DNA of 64,000 bases from a virus (IMGVR_UViG_3300048914_000231:50063-114062), one strand, 5' to 3'. Shown: positions 28,039 to 47,029, numbered from the stretch's first letter. Made by a program: numbers and translations. Notes: generated by a model not told the origin, from the letters alone.

Positions 28039-29766
28039 ATGGAAAAAGTAACGATCGCGCGTAACGCCGTGACAGCCATGCTGCACAAGCCCAGTCGCGA
28101 TGTAAAACTGGAAGTGCAGGCGATTCTGTCGTACGCGGTCGCCGGCGCCGAGCATGCGATCGCCTTCAAAAAGGGGGTGTGGGACGGGCGCTCGTCGTTC
28201 CTGGACTTCAGGAACGGCACCTTCCCGGCCGGCTTTACGCACTACGTCACGGCGCACCTGCGGCGCAAGGGGTACGAGGTGCAGATCGCCCAGAAGGCCC
28301 TGCCCGAGCCGCTCGGCCCGGAAAACCCGGTGGTCGACGCCTTTCCGGAAGACCCGCGCTACGACTACCAGATGGAAACCGTGCGGCGTCTGGTCAAGCA
28401 CGGCCAGATCATCGCCCAGATCGCCACCGGCGGCGGCAAGAGCCGTACCGCGCGCCTGGCGTACGCGCGCATCAACCGCATGACCCTGTTCATCACGACG
28501 CGCTCGATCCTCATGTACCAGATGAAGGACAGTTTCGAGCGCGACCTTGGCGTGCCGGTATCGGTGCTGGGCGATGGCCAGTTCGGTCACACCACGTCGG
28601 ACGGGCGCCAGGCGGTGCGCAAGATGTGCGTCGGCATGGTGCAGACCCTGGCGGCCAAGCTGAAGGAAAAGACGGTCGAGGGCGAAGTCGAGGCCGTGAT
28701 CGACGCGCTGGTGGCCAGGGAGCTCAAGGCGGTCAAGGCGCTGGAGAAGAAGCTGGTCGACGCCGGTGCCACGCCGGCGCAGGTCAGGGCCCGGGTCAGG
28801 CAGCTGGAAGAACAGCAGCTGGCCGCGCGCTCGGACTCGAAAAAGATCCAGGCCGATTGCGCCGTCAAGGTGCATGAGCACATGGCGATGCGCGCGCGGG
28901 TGATTGAATTGCTGGGCCGGTTCGAATTCGTGATCATCGAAGAGGCGCACGAGGCATCGGCCGAGGATTTCTACAACGTCATGCAGCACTGCAAGAGCGC
29001 GCACTACCGCATGGCGCTGACGGCGACGCCGTTCATGAAGGCCGACGAAGAGGCGAACATGCGCCTGATGGCGGTGTCCGGCCCGATCGCGATCAAGGTG
29101 TCCGAGCAGACCCTGATCGACCGCGGCATTCTGGCCCAGCCGCATTTTCGCTTCATCCCGTGGGCCGGCAAGCCGCCCAAGCTGTTCAAGCACACCGGCT
29201 GGGCGTCGGCGTACCGGCTTGGCATCACCGAGCACGAATGGCGCAACCAGACCGCGACCGCCGTGTGCCGGCGCTTTGCCGAGTATGGTCTGACGTCGAT
29301 GGTGCTGGTACAGCACACCGCGCACGGTGAGACCGTCAGGCGCCTGATGCTGGCCGCCGGCCTGCGCGTGGATTTCATCCAGGGCGAGGATGACCAGGAC
29401 GGGCGCAAGGCAGCACTGCAGCGCCTGGCGCGCGGCGAACTCGACATCCTGATCGGCACCACGATCCTCGACGTCGGCGTGGACGTGCCGGCCGTCGGTC
29501 ACATCTGCCTGCTGGGTGGTGGCAAGGCCGAGGTGCAGCTGCGTCAGCGTATCGGGCGCGGCCTGCGCGAGAAGAAGAACGGCATGCCGAACCTGTGCTT
29601 TGTGACCGACTTCGCCGACACGCTCAACGAGCACCTGCACAACCATGCCAGACAGCGTCAGGCGATCATCAGGGACACGCCGGGATTCGACCGCTTCATC
29701 CTCTCCGACGGGCGCGACTTCGACCTGGAGGCGCTCGGCTTCAGGCGGCTGGCGGCAGCGGCGTGA
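28039..29766 (+). CDS. SF2 DNA helicase, UvsW-like
   Basis: A 575-residue protein. Motif I ATGGGKS (near residue 135), motif II IIEEAHE (near 300) in place of DEAH, motif III LTATPF, and motif VI QRIGRGLRE (near 500). Between motifs I and II is a charged coiled insert of about 70 residues (LKEKTVEGEVEAVIDALVAR and on). The N-terminal 110 residues resemble the UvsW DNA-binding start. In T4 the relative unwinds branched DNA and R-loops. It heads the only plus-strand block and has an operator-bearing promoter. The ribosome site is weak. Confidence 0.85.
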   Translation: MEKVTIARNAVTAMLHKPSRDVKLEVQAILSYAVAGAEHAIAFKKGVWDGRSSFLDFRNGTFPAGFTHYVTAHLRRKGYEVQIAQKALPEPLGPENPVVDAFPEDPRYDYQMETVRRLVKHGQIIAQIATGGGKSRTARLAYARINRMTLFITTRSILMYQMKDSFERDLGVPVSVLGDGQFGHTTSDGRQAVRKMCVGMVQTLAAKLKEKTVEGEVEAVIDALVARELKAVKALEKKLVDAGATPAQVRARVRQLEEQQLAARSDSKKIQADCAVKVHEHMAMRARVIELLGRFEFVIIEEAHEASAEDFYNVMQHCKSAHYRMALTATPFMKADEEANMRLMAVSGPIAIKVSEQTLIDRGILAQPHFRFIPWAGKPPKLFKHTGWASAYRLGITEHEWRNQTATAVCRRFAEYGLTSMVLVQHTAHGETVRRLMLAAGLRVDFIQGEDDQDGRKAALQRLARGELDILIGTTILDVGVDVPAVGHICLLGGGKAEVQLRQRIGRGLREKKNGMPNLCFVTDFADTLNEHLHNHARQRQAIIRDTPGFDRFILSDGRDFDLEALGFRRLAAAA

Positions 29767-30173: not shown

Positions 30174-30458
30174 ATGAGCAATATTGACAAGCGCAACCGC
30201 TTTTCCATCGATCTGCCACCCGACTGGCAGGATTACCTGGCGCACACCGCCCGAATTCACCGGCTGACGCAGGGCGAGGTGGTGCAAACCCTGCTGGCCA
30301 ACATGCACAGCTGCGCCGGCATCGAGCAGGCTCTTGCCGCGCGGCGCGAGGAAAAGGTGGCAGCAAGGCGCAGCAAGGCGTCGATGACCGCGGCATTCAA
30401 GCAGTTGACACCCGAGCAACAGCGGCGCGCGCTGGAGGCGCTCGGAGCCGAATCGTGA
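30174..30458 (+). CDS. Small DNA-binding-like protein, first gene of array operon
   Basis: A 94-residue protein. The N-terminal RFSIDLPPDWQDYLAHTARI followed by HRLTQGEVVQTLLANM has the strand-helix-helix pattern of ribbon-helix-helix proteins. The C-terminal half is basic and helical (ARREEKVAARRSKAS). GGAG at good spacing precedes the ATG. It may repress its own promoter at 30109-30138. Assignment is from pattern only. Confidence 0.7.
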   Translation: MSNIDKRNRFSIDLPPDWQDYLAHTARIHRLTQGEVVQTLLANMHSCAGIEQALAARREEKVAARRSKASMTAAFKQLTPEQQRRALEALGAES

Positions 30459-30754
30459 AAGACAGGGCACCCGGGCCGAAGCCGGTTGAGGTGTGCCGGC
30501 ATGTATTCCGGCACGCGACGCTGAAGACGATCAATGCCAGGGTTGACCACATCGAATGGATCTTCTTCGAAGGTGAGAAATGGCCGCGCCAGCTGGTGTA
30601 TTTCACGAATGGATCGACCACGTTTGACGCCGCCGCACAGTGGACGCTGGCCCAGGCCAATGCGCTGGCCGAAACGGGCAACTGGACCAGGGAAATCTTC
30701 ATGACCGTGGAAAACGACAGGCCGGATGCATCGTACGGTACGGAGGTATGGTGA
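30455..30754 (+). CDS. Unknown protein of array operon, GTG start
   Basis: A 99-residue protein starting at a GTG at 30455 that overlaps the previous stop (GTGA). Contains HIEWIFFEGEKWPRQLVYF and a helix DAAAQWTLAQANALAETGNW; reads as a compact alpha-beta protein. It ends TEVW, with the DNA GAGGTATGGTGA forming both the ribosome site and the start of the next gene: the first of eight identical 7-nt overlaps. Confidence 0.75.
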   Translation: MKDRAPGPKPVEVCRHVFRHATLKTINARVDHIEWIFFEGEKWPRQLVYFTNGSTTFDAAAQWTLAQANALAETGNWTREIFMTVENDRPDASYGTEVW

Positions 30755-31029
30755 ACCTGCTGTTTATTGAACTGCATTCTGAAAAACTCAGGGATACCGC
30801 GCCGTTTGTGACGGCGTACGACCTGGATTATCCCGGGCCGAACAAGCGTCAGTGGCGCGTCGACAGGGCGCGCGGTGTCGAGTCCGGGGTCAATCGCGAT
30901 GGGAGTGGCATGCGGGGTGTATGGGCGTATCTGGCGGCCGGCACCTGGCTGCAGCTGACGCAGCAGGAAGCCTATACCAAATTTCCTGAACTGCAGACGG
31001 CGATCGAAAACTGGGTGGAGCCATGGTAA
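30748..31029 (+). CDS. Unknown protein of array operon
   Basis: A 93-residue protein (MVNLLFIELHSEKLRD start). Beta-rich first half with YDLDYPGPNKRQWRVDRARG, then WAYLAAGTWLQLTQQEAYTKF and a VEPW end. It may relate distantly to the previous gene. Joined to both neighbours by 7-nt ATGGTxx overlaps. Confidence 0.75.
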   Translation: MVNLLFIELHSEKLRDTAPFVTAYDLDYPGPNKRQWRVDRARGVESGVNRDGSGMRGVWAYLAAGTWLQLTQQEAYTKFPELQTAIENWVEPW

Positions 31030-31379
31030 ATCTGAGCAACAGCATAACGTACGAGAACTACCTGTACCTGCGCCGGCAGCTGGGTGAACAGGAAAACGGC
31101 GACTGGCCGTCGTCATCATGGAACATCATGTCGGCATCAGGCACGCAAAACGTGATCAACACCATGCTTGCCAAATGCGAAAACCTGATGCGCGAGCGTG
31201 ATCTGTCATGGGAGGCGTACAAGAAAGTGTGGAGCAAGGGGTCGGTGCCTGCGTATTTAAATCCGACCGCCTGGGAGGAAGCGCCGCTGTTCATCAAGGC
31301 GGCCATCATCAAGCCGCGTGAGGTGGGTATCGTTGACGTGCGCGAGGACGTGCCGCAAAGCGAGGTGACGCCATGGTGA
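31023..31379 (+). CDS. Array paralogue 1, two-unit protein
   Basis: A 118-residue protein that seems to hold two copies of the array unit: ITYENYLYLRRQL with W at about 32, and LSWEAYKKVWSKG with W at about 83, ending SEVTPW. The unit pattern is (S/T)-aromatic-x2-Y-x3-7, a tryptophan about 15-20 residues on, then a hydrophobic helix. It may be the fused product of two ancestral single-unit genes. Function unknown. Confidence 0.75.
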   Translation: MVNLSNSITYENYLYLRRQLGEQENGDWPSSSWNIMSASGTQNVINTMLAKCENLMRERDLSWEAYKKVWSKGSVPAYLNPTAWEEAPLFIKAAIIKPREVGIVDVREDVPQSEVTPW

Positions 31380-31588
31380 GATACCGGCCCGACGGACGCA
31401 AAATTGACACGAGCTACGCCAACTATCTGCGTCTGGCCGGTTTGAACCTGATCAGCGCCGACAACCAGCTGACGTCGAACGACTGGAACTGGCTTGATAT
31501 GGACGGCAAGGCTGGTGAAATCGAGCGCCTGATGAACCTGGCCGAAGTGCGCGACCGGCCGGAAAGCGGCGGGGTGGTGGCATGGTAG
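31373..31588 (+). CDS. Array paralogue 2
   Basis: A 71-residue protein. Unit pattern: TSYANYLRLAGLNL, then NDWNWLDMDGKAGEIERLMNL, ending GGVVAW. Both ends form 7-nt overlaps with neighbours. The N-terminal 12 residues (RYRPDGRKID) extend the unit. Function unknown. Confidence 0.75.
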   Translation: MVRYRPDGRKIDTSYANYLRLAGLNLISADNQLTSNDWNWLDMDGKAGEIERLMNLAEVRDRPESGGVVAW

Positions 31589-31785
31589 AGCGTCTGTCCT
31601 ACCGTCATTACAAGTCGCTTCATTTTGCCGCCGGTTATGGAGAAGGTGAACTGGCCGACATCGTCATGTGGATGGATACGCCCGACCAGCTGAAACTCGC
31701 CGAGATTGAAATGCTGGAAGAACGCCTGCGCGAGATTCGTGACGAGGTGTCCGATATACCAACCAGCATGGTGACGCCATGGTAA
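31582..31785 (+). CDS. Array paralogue 3
   Basis: A 67-residue protein. Unit pattern: LSYRHYKSLHFAAGYGEGEL, a WMDTPDQ turn, an acidic helix AEIEMLEERLREIRDEV and a TSMVTPW end. Coupled to both neighbours by 7-nt overlaps. Function unknown. Confidence 0.75.
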   Translation: MVERLSYRHYKSLHFAAGYGEGELADIVMWMDTPDQLKLAEIEMLEERLREIRDEVSDIPTSMVTPW

Positions 31786-31982
31786 AAGATTCAGCCTACC
31801 CTTACGAACGTTATGTGGAGTATTTCAAGATCGTCTGGCCAGGCATGCACCCGATGGATGAATATGAATGGTATGTGCGGCATGGACGCACGGCGCGCGC
31901 GAGGACGATCAAGATACTCGTTCGGCAGATTCCAGATCATCAGCGCAAAGCGCCATTCTTGAAGGAGAGGGTCACATGGTAG
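31779..31982 (+). CDS. Array paralogue 4
   Basis: A 67-residue protein, the most divergent member. YPYERYVEYFKIVW replaces the usual start of the unit, followed by EYEWYVRHGRTARARTIKIL and an ERVTW end. More basic than the others. GGAGAGGGT before the next ATG is the ribosome site. Function unknown. Confidence 0.7.
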   Translation: MVKDSAYPYERYVEYFKIVWPGMHPMDEYEWYVRHGRTARARTIKILVRQIPDHQRKAPFLKERVTW

Positions 31983-32182
31983 ACGTGAGCTATGACCGTT
32001 TTTACGCTTTGCGCAGGGCGCTGGATATGCCAGAAGAGGGGGAGGTGGCGCGCAGCAGGTGGGAGATTCTGCCGGAGGCGCATCGGCAAAGCGTCATCGC
32101 CATGATGACCGGCACGCTCAACGGGCGCAACACCGTCCTGTTCCCGTGCGACGCGCCTGAAAGTGAGGTGGTGCCATGGTAG
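31976..32182 (+). CDS. Array paralogue 5
   Basis: A 68-residue protein starting MVDVSYDRFYALRRALDMPE at 31976; the longer open frame upstream belongs to another reading frame of the previous gene. Unit pattern continues with RWEILPEAHRQSVIAMM and ends PESEVVPW. Close to paralogues 6 and 7. Coupled by 7-nt overlaps. Confidence 0.75.
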   Translation: MVDVSYDRFYALRRALDMPEEGEVARSRWEILPEAHRQSVIAMMTGTLNGRNTVLFPCDAPESEVVPW

Positions 32183-32385
32183 AGGATTGCACTTACGAGC
32201 AATACAAGGCGGCCTGCGTATCGATCAACGAAAAAGCATGTTGGACGCGAGGAGGATGGCTGGGCTTGGTCAAAGACGCGCGGATCGCGGTCATGGCAAA
32301 CCTGTTGAATGCCGGGGCCTGGTGGCCCGATAGGGAGCTTGGCGAGGGTGAGGATGTTCCAGAAACTGAGGTGACGCCATGGTAG
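32176..32385 (+). CDS. Array paralogue 6
   Basis: A 69-residue protein. CTYEQYKAACVSINEKA, then GGWLGLVKDARIAVMANLLNA and the VPETEVTPW end that matches paralogues 1 and 5. Coupled by 7-nt overlaps at both ends. Function unknown. Confidence 0.75.
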   Translation: MVEDCTYEQYKAACVSINEKACWTRGGWLGLVKDARIAVMANLLNAGAWWPDRELGEGEDVPETEVTPW

Positions 32386-32573
32386 AGGAATTGTCGTACG
32401 AAGCATATCTGCGTCTTCGGCGCGCCGCCAGGCGCGAGGAAGCGCATGACGTCTCGCGCGAATCCTGGGAAGGCGGCAAGGTGGCGCGACGCTTCGTCAT
32501 CAGCTGGCTCACGCGGGAGATCGGGCAGCGCGTCGATGCGCAGGAACTGCCCGAATGGGGAACATGGGGATAG
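32379..32573 (+). CDS. Array paralogue 7, last member
   Basis: A 64-residue protein. LSYEAYLRLRRAARREEA is the clearest copy of the unit start, followed by RESWEGGKVARRFVISWLTREI. It ends EWGTWG and lacks the EVTPW/ATGGT coupling cassette, as expected for the end of the chain. A short out-of-frame ATG overlaps the end. Confidence 0.75.
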   Translation: MVEELSYEAYLRLRRAARREEAHDVSRESWEGGKVARRFVISWLTREIGQRVDAQELPEWGTWG

Positions 32574-36792: not shown

Positions 36793-37440
36793 CTACCAGT
36801 TGGCCCACGTGTCGTAGGCGTCGATGCGAATTTCGTGTTCCAGCCTGATTTCGCTGCGCATCTGCCCGATCATGTCGATGCGCCAGTTGATCCGGATGGC
36901 GCGGTTTTCGATACGGTCCTGGCTGCAGTTGTCGATGACGACCTGATCCCTGAAGCCGTTGTGAAAATACAGAACCATGCAGCCGCTTTTTGCCTCGACG
37001 CTTGCGATATTTTCCCTTTGAACGATGGCCCAGTCGTGCCGGTCATCCTTCAGAAGCAGATTCATCTTTTCGGCCCGGTGTCTGGCCACGAGATTGCTTG
37101 AGCAGGTTTCGATCACGTCCCGCCGGTCGTGGTTCGTCGTTCTGATTCTGTACGTCAGGTTGAAGCCGTCGGCGCCGAATTCGGCATGGTAATCGCCGTT
37201 CGTGTCGCGCTCGATCAGCAGCCGGTTGATCCGGTCGATGCGCTCGTGCGTCAGGATATTGTCTCTGCTGCCGTCCGTGATCGCATACAGAATATCGGAC
37301 TGGTTCAGACGCTCCTGATAAATGTTGCCGGCGTCGTTGATGTAGACCCGCACCATCAGCGGATCGATTGTCACATTCGTGGCGTCGTTTTCCAGGCGCT
37401 CCTGCTGCGCGTGCGCTTCCTGTTGTTCCCGCCGATTCAT
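36793..37440 (-). CDS. Unknown protein
   Basis: A 215-residue protein. I choose the ATG at 37440 because GGAGGGG lies 6 nt upstream; a GTG at 37446 is too close to that site. Rich in N, D, R and I, with repeated strand-like patterns (DPLMVRVYINDAGNIYQERL, IRTTNHDRRDVIET). Starts the two-gene unit that ends at 36283. No motif recognised. Confidence 0.78.
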   Translation of the reverse strand: MNRREQQEAHAQQERLENDATNVTIDPLMVRVYINDAGNIYQERLNQSDILYAITDGSRDNILTHERIDRINRLLIERDTNGDYHAEFGADGFNLTYRIRTTNHDRRDVIETCSSNLVARHRAEKMNLLLKDDRHDWAIVQRENIASVEAKSGCMVLYFHNGFRDQVVIDNCSQDRIENRAIRINWRIDMIGQMRSEIRLEHEIRIDAYDTWANW

Positions 37441-42575: not shown

Positions 42576-42875
42576 TTACCAGCTGCCGGCCAGCGTATGG
42601 GTTGGCAGGTCGGCTTTGGCCAGTTCGTGCGCCTTGAGCCAAATCGCCTGTTCCCATTGCAGGTCGTGCCACAGTTTGTCGAAGCCACGGGTGCGTTTTT
42701 CAAGCCATTTGCCCTGTTCCAGTTGCAGGTCGCGCCAGGCCTGCTCCCACGCCTGGCGTTCCAGCTCGACGCGAACGCGCTCGCGCACGACCCTGTTGGC
42801 TTTCTCGCGCTCACGCAGCGCGGCGGCCTTCTGGATCTGATCGCGCTGCCTGACGCGTTTCTGCTTCTTGTTCAC
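42576..42875 (-). CDS. Charged coiled-coil protein, GTG start
   Basis: A 99-residue protein starting at a GTG (42875) with GAGG upstream; MNKKQKRVRQRDQIQKAAAL and then an almost uninterrupted helix rich in R, E, W and Q (AWEQAWRDLQLEQGKWLEKR). Highly charged; may bind nucleic acid or act as a spacer. Overlaps the upstream stop. Confidence 0.7.
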   Translation of the reverse strand: MNKKQKRVRQRDQIQKAAALREREKANRVVRERVRVELERQAWEQAWRDLQLEQGKWLEKRTRGFDKLWHDLQWEQAIWLKAHELAKADLPTHTLAGSW

Positions 42876-46291: not shown

Positions 46292-46604
46292 GAGCCACCT
46301 CCCTGATCAGCTGGTCGATCAGCTTCAGACGCCCGCGCTTTTGCCAGCCCAGGCCGGACTTCTCGATGCCGGGGTCGGTCTGCGCCATCGCCCACAGGCT
46401 GTAGTAGGCGTAAGGGTCGATGATGTCACGCACCTTGTAAACAAAGTCCGTGATCTGCTGCGGCGTGCCGAACTGCCGGCCAACGACCTCGATGGCGTTG
46501 CAGATGAAGCGCTCGTCATCGCGCTCGATCATGGCGCGCACCTTCTGCAGGAATTCGACATCGGTGACGCTCTGGCGCGCCAGTGGTTTTGCGAGCGTCA
46601 CCAT
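46284..46604 (-). CDS. Small helical protein, paralogue of previous
   Basis: A 106-residue protein. RDDERFICNAIEVVGRQFGT, QQITDFVYKVRDIIDPYAYY and the end RGRLKLIDQLIREVAHG align with the 101-residue neighbour. The tyrosine-rich core and short basic end are shared. Overlaps by 7-8 nt at both ends. Function unknown. Confidence 0.72.
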   Translation of the reverse strand: MVTLAKPLARQSVTDVEFLQKVRAMIERDDERFICNAIEVVGRQFGTPQQITDFVYKVRDIIDPYAYYSLWAMAQTDPGIEKSGLGWQKRGRLKLIDQLIREVAHG

Positions 46605-47029
46605 GCTGCGTCTCCGTCAAAGCCAGGCAGGACGATCATCGAGTCGGGCAGGTCCGGGTTGATCGGCTTGAGCGTGTTGCCTTCCTCGACGAACTTGCCG
46701 CCGTTGCTGTGCGATTCGGTCCACGAGGTCAGAAACTCCTCGTAGTGCGCGATCGCCTCTGCCTCGTTGCGGTGCCAGGTCTCGCCGTTCAGGGCGTCGC
46801 GCACCATTTCGCCGTTCTCCAGGTAGTTGTGGACGGTCATCCTGAATACCTTCTTGTAGGCTTCGAAGACGTTCTGCACGCCGTCGATCTTGCCGTACCA
46901 TTCCACCTCCACGTGCACGCGGCCGTTGTCATAGCGCCTGACCGAAACATAAGCCGCGTCCTGACGTAGTTCGATCCAGCGTTCGCGCCTGATATCATTG
47001 TCCTTGCGGTCCAAATATTGTGTTGCCAT
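46598..47029 (-). CDS. Unknown protein, 143 residues
   Basis: Mixed alpha-beta protein: RRERWIELRQDAAYVSVRRY, VHVEVEWYGKIDGVQNVFEA and a HRNEAEAIAHYEEFLTSW helix. First gene of a four-gene unit that ends with the HicA-like gene. An aGGG-type site precedes the ATG weakly. No family recognised. Confidence 0.75.
   Translation of the reverse strand: MATQYLDRKDNDIRRERWIELRQDAAYVSVRRYDNGRVHVEVEWYGKIDGVQNVFEAYKKVFRMTVHNYLENGEMVRDALNGETWHRNEAEAIAHYEEFLTSWTESHSNGGKFVEEGNTLKPINPDLPDSMIVLPGFDGDAAW

Follow-up and report, generated by a model that had tools for sequence, protein, structure and literature searches.

C-terminal peptides shared by small, mostly unrelated proteins of phages of about 110 kb: a probable phage-specific docking tag

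We analyzed a 64,000-nucleotide (nt) stretch of phage DNA, referred to here as the window, which lies at the right-hand end of a phage record of 114,062 nt (IMGVR_UViG_3300048914_000231; G000:C1:50063-114062). It contains an array of small plus-strand genes at 30455-32573, which a preliminary description had read as a chain of paralogs carrying a shared coupling sequence at their ends. We found that these genes, together with mostly non-homologous genes elsewhere in the same genome, encode the same kind of short, aromatic C-terminal peptide, and that related phages carry versions of their own. Judging from these sequences, the shared C-terminus is probably a phage-specific docking tag, by which many small accessory proteins would bind a common partner; we refer to it below as the tag.

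C-terminal peptides in ten phage genomes and their candidate readers

The main comparison covered ten genomes, namely the source phage (G000) and nine relatives. In the source phage, 16 of the 158 called genes encode a C-terminal Trp, against 2.2 expected; the excess is clear in seven relatives as well, and counts among the relatives include 16/167 in G001, 13/157 in G003 and 12/163 in Stenotrophomonas phage ANB28. The Trp-ended tails of the source phage are also found far from the array and on the opposite strand, several of them without an overlapping next gene. Those off the array include ..DVPENSSGAW, ..DIPTSTPTW, ..DLPTHTLAGSW and ..DAYDTWANW, the last 2 of which belong to uncoupled minus-strand genes at 42576..42875 (99 amino acids; next gene at +80) and 36793..37440 (215 amino acids; next gene at +12), respectively. 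Another minus-strand gene, at 46598..47029 (143 amino acids, ..PGFDGDAAW), has a 7-nt overlap with the next gene and orthologs with other tags in 7 relatives. This family, of about 146 amino acids and with a weak match to PHROG 5241, combines a Pro-rich stretch with the tag in seven phages, and its ortholog in Pseudomonas phage nickie (Nickievirus) ends in DAGGWS.

The two phages without an excess of Trp ends, nickie and Rhizobium phage RHph_N1_10, each have a tag of their own: nickie proteins end in FGGWA, FGTWA, FGSWA and similar peptides, and eight scattered proteins of RHph_N1_10 end in [FY]GRF. A reverse-translated [FY]GRF-stop pattern was found in Rhizobium phages only (7 in RHph_N1_10, 4 in RHEph10, 3 in Y2_11, and 1 each in X66 and B1VFA), with no occurrence in the other clades of the set. 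Versions among the nine relatives include YGxW, YGDAW, FGTW, FGGWA and NFGRF, on mostly non-homologous proteins. A strict pattern, [FYWM]Gx(1-2)[WF] followed by an optional A, S or G, occurs at 62 C-termini in the ten genomes compared with 1.85 expected from internal positions, an excess in which the weight lies on the ratio and not on a p value. In T4, the same pattern was found in 0 of 83 genes tested, and shared C-terminal tetramers showed no clear excess. In addition, D/E-x-P-x-S/T occurs within the last 20 residues of 24 of the 90 Trp-ended proteins, against 24 of 1158 other proteins.

Within a phage, the tag is uniform and the bodies of the proteins that carry it are mostly non-homologous (0-2 homologous pairs per phage, and no mutual homology among the tagged bodies of ANB28); in other words, non-homologous proteins of one genome share the same short C-terminal peptide, as expected of a docking motif. 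One phage, G012 (contig L036), seemingly has two tag forms, ..WGAW/..WATW and ..FGAWS.

Between phages, the tag changes on orthologous proteins. A WGR-domain protein that adjoins replication genes ends in GWASW, TWGSW, SWGTW, SWGSW or NFGRF in different phages; orthologs in group OG6 end in FGAW, FGSW, FGMF or FGRF, and those in OG9 in VASW, VGAF, ADQW, GGSW or GQIAW. The codons of the tag vary synonymously, for example in RHph_N1_10 (TTC GGC CGC TTC, TTT GGG AGA TTC and TAT GGG AGA TTT). Both the synonymous codons and the exchange of tags between orthologs indicate conservation at the peptide rather than the DNA level. As judged by eye, several tags are preceded by divergent Pro-rich or charged stretches, which may act as flexible linkers, and the tag of OG2 follows a Pro-rich stretch.

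We propose the following mechanism. The tag is a short linear motif with an aromatic end, usually aromatic-Gly-x-Trp/Phe at the C-terminus or one residue before it, and in the source phage often of the form DxPx(S/T)...W. It would dock all its carriers on one hub, either phage-encoded or a host component to which the phage adapts, and tag and reader would drift together from phage to phage. Among tagged proteins with hints of function are the WGR protein and a nickie protein whose annotation reads Mu Gam-like end protection; these 2 suggest DNA-related work.

Several points weigh against this proposal. The tag is degenerate in the source phage (EVTPW, FGAW, TPTW, GKETW, WASW), where the strict pattern catches only 3 genes, and some Trp ends, such as those of integrase and NrdB, are ordinary. 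The strict pattern was written after the data had been seen, and orthologs across phages, which are not independent, were counted more than once. Genes in the ten genomes were called with a home-made caller, whose stops match the deposited annotation where checked (ANB28, RHph_N1_10 and nickie). Searches for two possible readers were also negative: the ten genomes gave no match to DnaN (TIGR00663), in a search that did not extend to the T4 gp45 and PCNA families and with a host clamp that could serve instead, nor to the canonical SSB family. Within that scope, neither a DnaN-type clamp nor a canonical SSB is supported as reader. In nickie and RHph_N1_10, the phage SSB, RecA, PolIII and ligase do not carry the tag.

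Homologs of CobS and CobT were found in all ten genomes, near each other in the source phage (G000:C1 21366-25284; L016 1366-5284), and provide one candidate reader, which is only a lead. Their presence throughout also favors a different reading, in which the tag would mark its carriers as substrates of a phage ATPase or protease machine, such as a pair of CobS (AAA+) and CobT (vWA), rather than dock them on a static hub. A haloarchaeal-type virus with C-terminal motifs of its own (L002) likewise encodes CobS and gives a weak match to CobT_C; cyanophage S-PM2, however, has CobS but no clear shared tag, and no direct link of CobT to the tag was found. We consider a substrate signal unlikely, though the least unlikely of the alternatives to a docking tag that we weighed.

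Overlap junctions and ribosome sites of the array

The nine consecutive genes of the array (g1 to g9) had been described as joined by eight 7-nt overlaps, all of which we recovered as ATGGTGA or ATGGTAR on the plus strand. They read ATGGTGA at g1/g2 (30748..30754) and g3/g4 (31373..31379), ATGGTAA at g2/g3 (31023..31029) and g5/g6 (31779..31785), and ATGGTAG at g4/g5 (31582..31588), g6/g7 (31976..31982), g7/g8 (32176..32182) and g8/g9 (32379..32385); at 30748, g2 could equally well start from a GTG, in which case the overlap would be 4 nt. The junction sequence, ATGGTRA, occurs 17 times on the plus strand and 4 times on the minus strand of the window; nine of the 17 lie within the 2.1-kb array, and eight of those nine are junctions.

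The W-stop of one gene, the M-V of the next and the 7-nt overlap are a single constraint and not three facts, because an ATG start in a -7 overlap requires a last codon TGN (Trp or Cys), and TGG in turn makes Val the second residue downstream. Conversely, TGG-stop after an A spells ATG, so that the 7-nt overlap follows from a Trp-ended tag. Overlaps of -4, -1 and -8 are usually favored, -7 being uncommon and outside the favored set (PMC12548453). In the ten genomes, 22 of the 25 -7 overlaps are at Trp-ended genes, and there are none in nickie or RHph_N1_10, the phages whose tags end otherwise than in Trp. The -7 overlap is a by-product of the Trp-ended tag.

The DNA for the EVTPW ending had further been proposed to supply the ribosome site of the next gene. 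This holds at g3/g4, g7/g8 and g8/g9, where a Shine-Dalgarno (SD) sequence GAGGTG(A) lies 4-5 nt from the ATG (GAGGTGA 4 nt upstream at g3/g4, GAGGTG at g7/g8 and GAGGTGA at g8/g9), but most other junctions have a weaker site; that of g6/g7 reads AAGGAG. GAGGTG(A) accounts for the E-V of EVTPW; the other elements, DxPx(S/T) and the Trp at the end, are parts of the tag found genome-wide. Ribosome sites are selected at coupled junctions: GGA makes up 24 of the 43 Gly codons in coupled tails, compared with 7.3% genome-wide and 7/24 in uncoupled tails. Where genes are densely chained, the end of the tag-coding sequence also provides the next gene with its ribosome site and its start codon and would couple its translation, an arrangement that reads GAGGTGA..ATGGTRA in the source phage and TACGGAG..TGGTAATG in others. 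Stops and starts overlap along a whole series of genes of one strand, and the ribosome site lies in the end of the upstream gene; we infer that translation is coupled across the junctions of the array.

This raises the question whether coupling explains the peptide altogether. According to the preliminary description, the C-terminal motif may be kept because it is the coupling cassette, with one cassette for each duplicated unit; the tail residues would then amount to the upstream-frame spelling of the SD, stop and start of the next gene. The GAGGTG(A)..ATGGTRA arrangement at three junctions, the strong over-use of GGA in coupled tails and the restriction of a -7 overlap to Trp or Cys all fit this explanation. 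The tag is, however, also found on uncoupled, distant and non-homologous genes, and for the tail this is the very situation (single genes, unrelated neighbors, no coupling) that the preliminary description had named as refuting its view. Of the 98 tagged genes in nine genomes, some of which, like an integrase, merely have an ordinary Trp end, 51 have no overlapping next gene. Genes at the end of a chain can retain the tag. In ANB28, the same YGxW peptide occurs in two junction designs, one with a 1-nt overlap and the SD in the tag codons and one with a 14-nt overlap and the start codon in the tag codons. Furthermore, orthologs carry other tags, and the tags that end in Phe (GRF) or Trp-Ala are found in phages without any -7 overlap. 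Coupling is thus refuted as the sole cause of the motif by the tagged genes that have no coupled neighbor, and we give it little credence as a full explanation, less than a substrate signal; within chains it remains as an additional constraint, beside the docking function that we propose for the tag.

Composition of the array and relatives at the same locus

The array lies downstream of a gene for a UvsW-like/DEAD-box helicase (28039..29766, plus strand), which tblastn showed to be conserved in Proteobacteria phages of about 110 kb and which served as a landmark. The run starts with an untagged gene, g0 (30174..30458, plus strand, as are all genes of the run; 94 amino acids), which has an ortholog in L021 and overlaps g1 by 4 nt. 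Seven of the array proteins had been thought to share a unit. We determined membership with a strict leave-one-out hidden Markov model (HMM) score against 1000 shuffles, the earlier membership test having been looser. The family is real, but the count was slightly high: six of the nine outscore all 1000 shuffles, and the pattern that these proteins share is (S/T)YxxY...W (the SYxxY unit). These are g3 (31023..31379, 118 amino acids, unit in the first half, ..EDVPQSEVTPW, 36.4 bits), g4 (31373..31588, 71 amino acids, ..DRPESGGVVAW, 16.7 bits), g5 (31582..31785, 67 amino acids, ..SDIPTSMVTPW, 18.4 bits), g7 (31976..32182, 68 amino acids, ..CDAPESEVVPW, 29.7 bits), g8 (32176..32385, 69 amino acids, ..EDVPETEVTPW, 20.3 bits) and g9 (32379..32573, 64 amino acids, 33.9 bits). 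The last of these has no coupled gene after it and ends in a tag variant, ..PEWGTWG, that fits the strict pattern and whose ..EWGTWG is the nickie form. The second half of g3 possibly holds another, fused unit, although its score is weak (1.9 bits, with 54 of 1000 shuffles as good) and only suggestive. We rejected g6 (31779..31982, 67 amino acids, ..LKERVTW) as a member at -5.9 bits, as well as a 61-amino-acid gene of L108 that failed the membership tests. Of the remaining proteins, g1 (30455..30754, 99 amino acids, ..DRPDASYGTEVW) belongs to a second small family, the MSRYF type (10.5 bits in its leave-one-out HMM, best shuffle 5.7), and g2 (30748..31029, 93 amino acids, ..ENWVEPW) is of a third kind, with homologs in the arrays of L023 (phmmer 4e-26) and L029. 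The view of the array as duplicated units therefore holds in part: it is in part a diverged tandem family, and its junctions do combine tail codons, ribosome site and start.

The array proteins gave no convincing match in Pfam or PHROG, and the SYxxY unit none among PDB sequences; two array proteins had no tblastn relative among the named phages, and g3 alone had no close protein match in IMG/VR. The alignment of the unit is too divergent for a pattern search. The unit was found only in arrays at this locus, plus one weak match elsewhere. In L070, a single gene of 210 amino acids contains two units that are supported and another that is borderline.

Relatives of the helicase found by tblastn include Pseudomonas phages nickie and hairong (Nickievirus), ANB28 and RHph_N1_10; IMG/VR contributed 80 loci, and a search of genome contigs yielded seven relatives, mostly in beta- and gammaproteobacteria. 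In about a dozen relatives, the helicase is followed by a chain of small genes, almost all with Trp as the last codon before the stop, and with a tail that differs per phage: YGxW in ANB28 and L108, SYGDAW in L032, YGDAW or YGDHW in L029, FGTW, WGTW or YGTW in L094, and THGSAW in L070. Many other relatives have no such Trp-ended chain downstream of the helicase.

In the nearest relative, L021, an extra gene of the MSRYF type lies between the orthologs of g2 and g3 with the same junction at its borders, so arrays gain or lose whole genes at the junction. The reading frame of the g2 ortholog, at L021 10693-11056, is broken by a tandem duplication within the gene. Unrelated genes with the same junction, and array content that differs by whole genes flanked by it, would fit a role of the tail DNA repeat as a homology segment for insertion, loss and shuffling of small genes, much as has been proposed for lambdoid ninR genes; arrays may indeed be shuffled via tail repeats, but that the peptide is incidental to this is as improbable as coupling alone, given that it is kept while codons vary in RHph_N1_10 and that orthologous single genes carry clade-specific tags.

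An exact 16-mer, GAGGTGACGCCATGGT, has 13 matches in IMG/VR, of which one is a true relative (L011, on the same contig as L021), one is the unrelated chain of L002, and the others are in no comparable array. L002 (7430-9985; IMGVR_UViG_2595698333_000001; G014) is part of a probable haloarchaeal virus and has a dozen or so small genes in a chain with a C-terminal FWDxR motif in common, which occurs 9 times in the last 18 residues and 0 times elsewhere in its proteins. Six other proteins of this virus have ends of the D(V/P)L(D/E)F type, resembling clamp-binding C-termini.

Known docking peptides and meaning of the tag

The nearest precedent for a docking tag is found in T4, in which the unrelated proteins gp43, gp55 and gp33 have similar, interchangeable hydrophobic/acidic C-termini that bind the gp45 clamp (PMC2988020). 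There too, several unrelated phage proteins reach one hub through a short C-terminal peptide, which in gp55 sits on a variable linker (PMC2988020). Unlike T4, with three such proteins, the phages studied here have about 8-19 tagged proteins per genome, and their tag, of the form aromatic-Gly-x-Trp/Phe, differs from one phage to another. They also gave no match to a DnaN-type clamp, and T4 itself has no shared tag by our tests. The C-terminal tip of E. coli SSB (SSB-Ct) is an acidic, flexible tail with a C-terminal aromatic residue, DDDIPF. It docks many partners (PMC10018359). In that system the tip belongs to a single protein and the pocket to many, whereas here it is the tip that many proteins carry. 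In ribonucleotide reductase, the C-terminal peptide of the small subunit (R2) docks on the large subunit; that tail belongs to one protein with a known partner, in contrast to a genome-wide tag. A phage NrdB in our set is Trp-ended. The lambdoid ninR region consists of interlinked chains of small accessory genes with overlapping stops and starts, which the array resembles, differing in its -7 overlap from a Trp end. Docking C-termini and coupled chains are known, and in a literature survey of incomplete coverage we found no description of a genome-wide C-terminal tag in phages, nor of some dozen small, non-homologous proteins that share a phage-wide and phage-specific tag.

A broader picture, which we put forward tentatively and at somewhat less than even odds, is that siphophages of about 110 kb from Proteobacteria place a private label on around a dozen small, unrelated proteins, to be read by a co-evolving phage receptor. 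Such a receptor would gather the tagged proteins at one place, which could be the replication site, a host target or the capsid. A new accessory gene would enter the system once it acquires the tag, which in tight arrays would also serve as ribosome site and start codon. A single DNA stretch would then have three roles at once, the third being that of a protein signal, and the rare -7 overlap is explained as a consequence of a protein signal. Considering that most small phage genes are of unknown function and have no detectable homologs, the tag would allow the clients of its reader to be grouped by mechanism even where homology is lacking, and its peptide would be a direct bait for that reader. 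If tag and reader co-vary, the tags of different phages would provide ready-made tests of mutual specificity.

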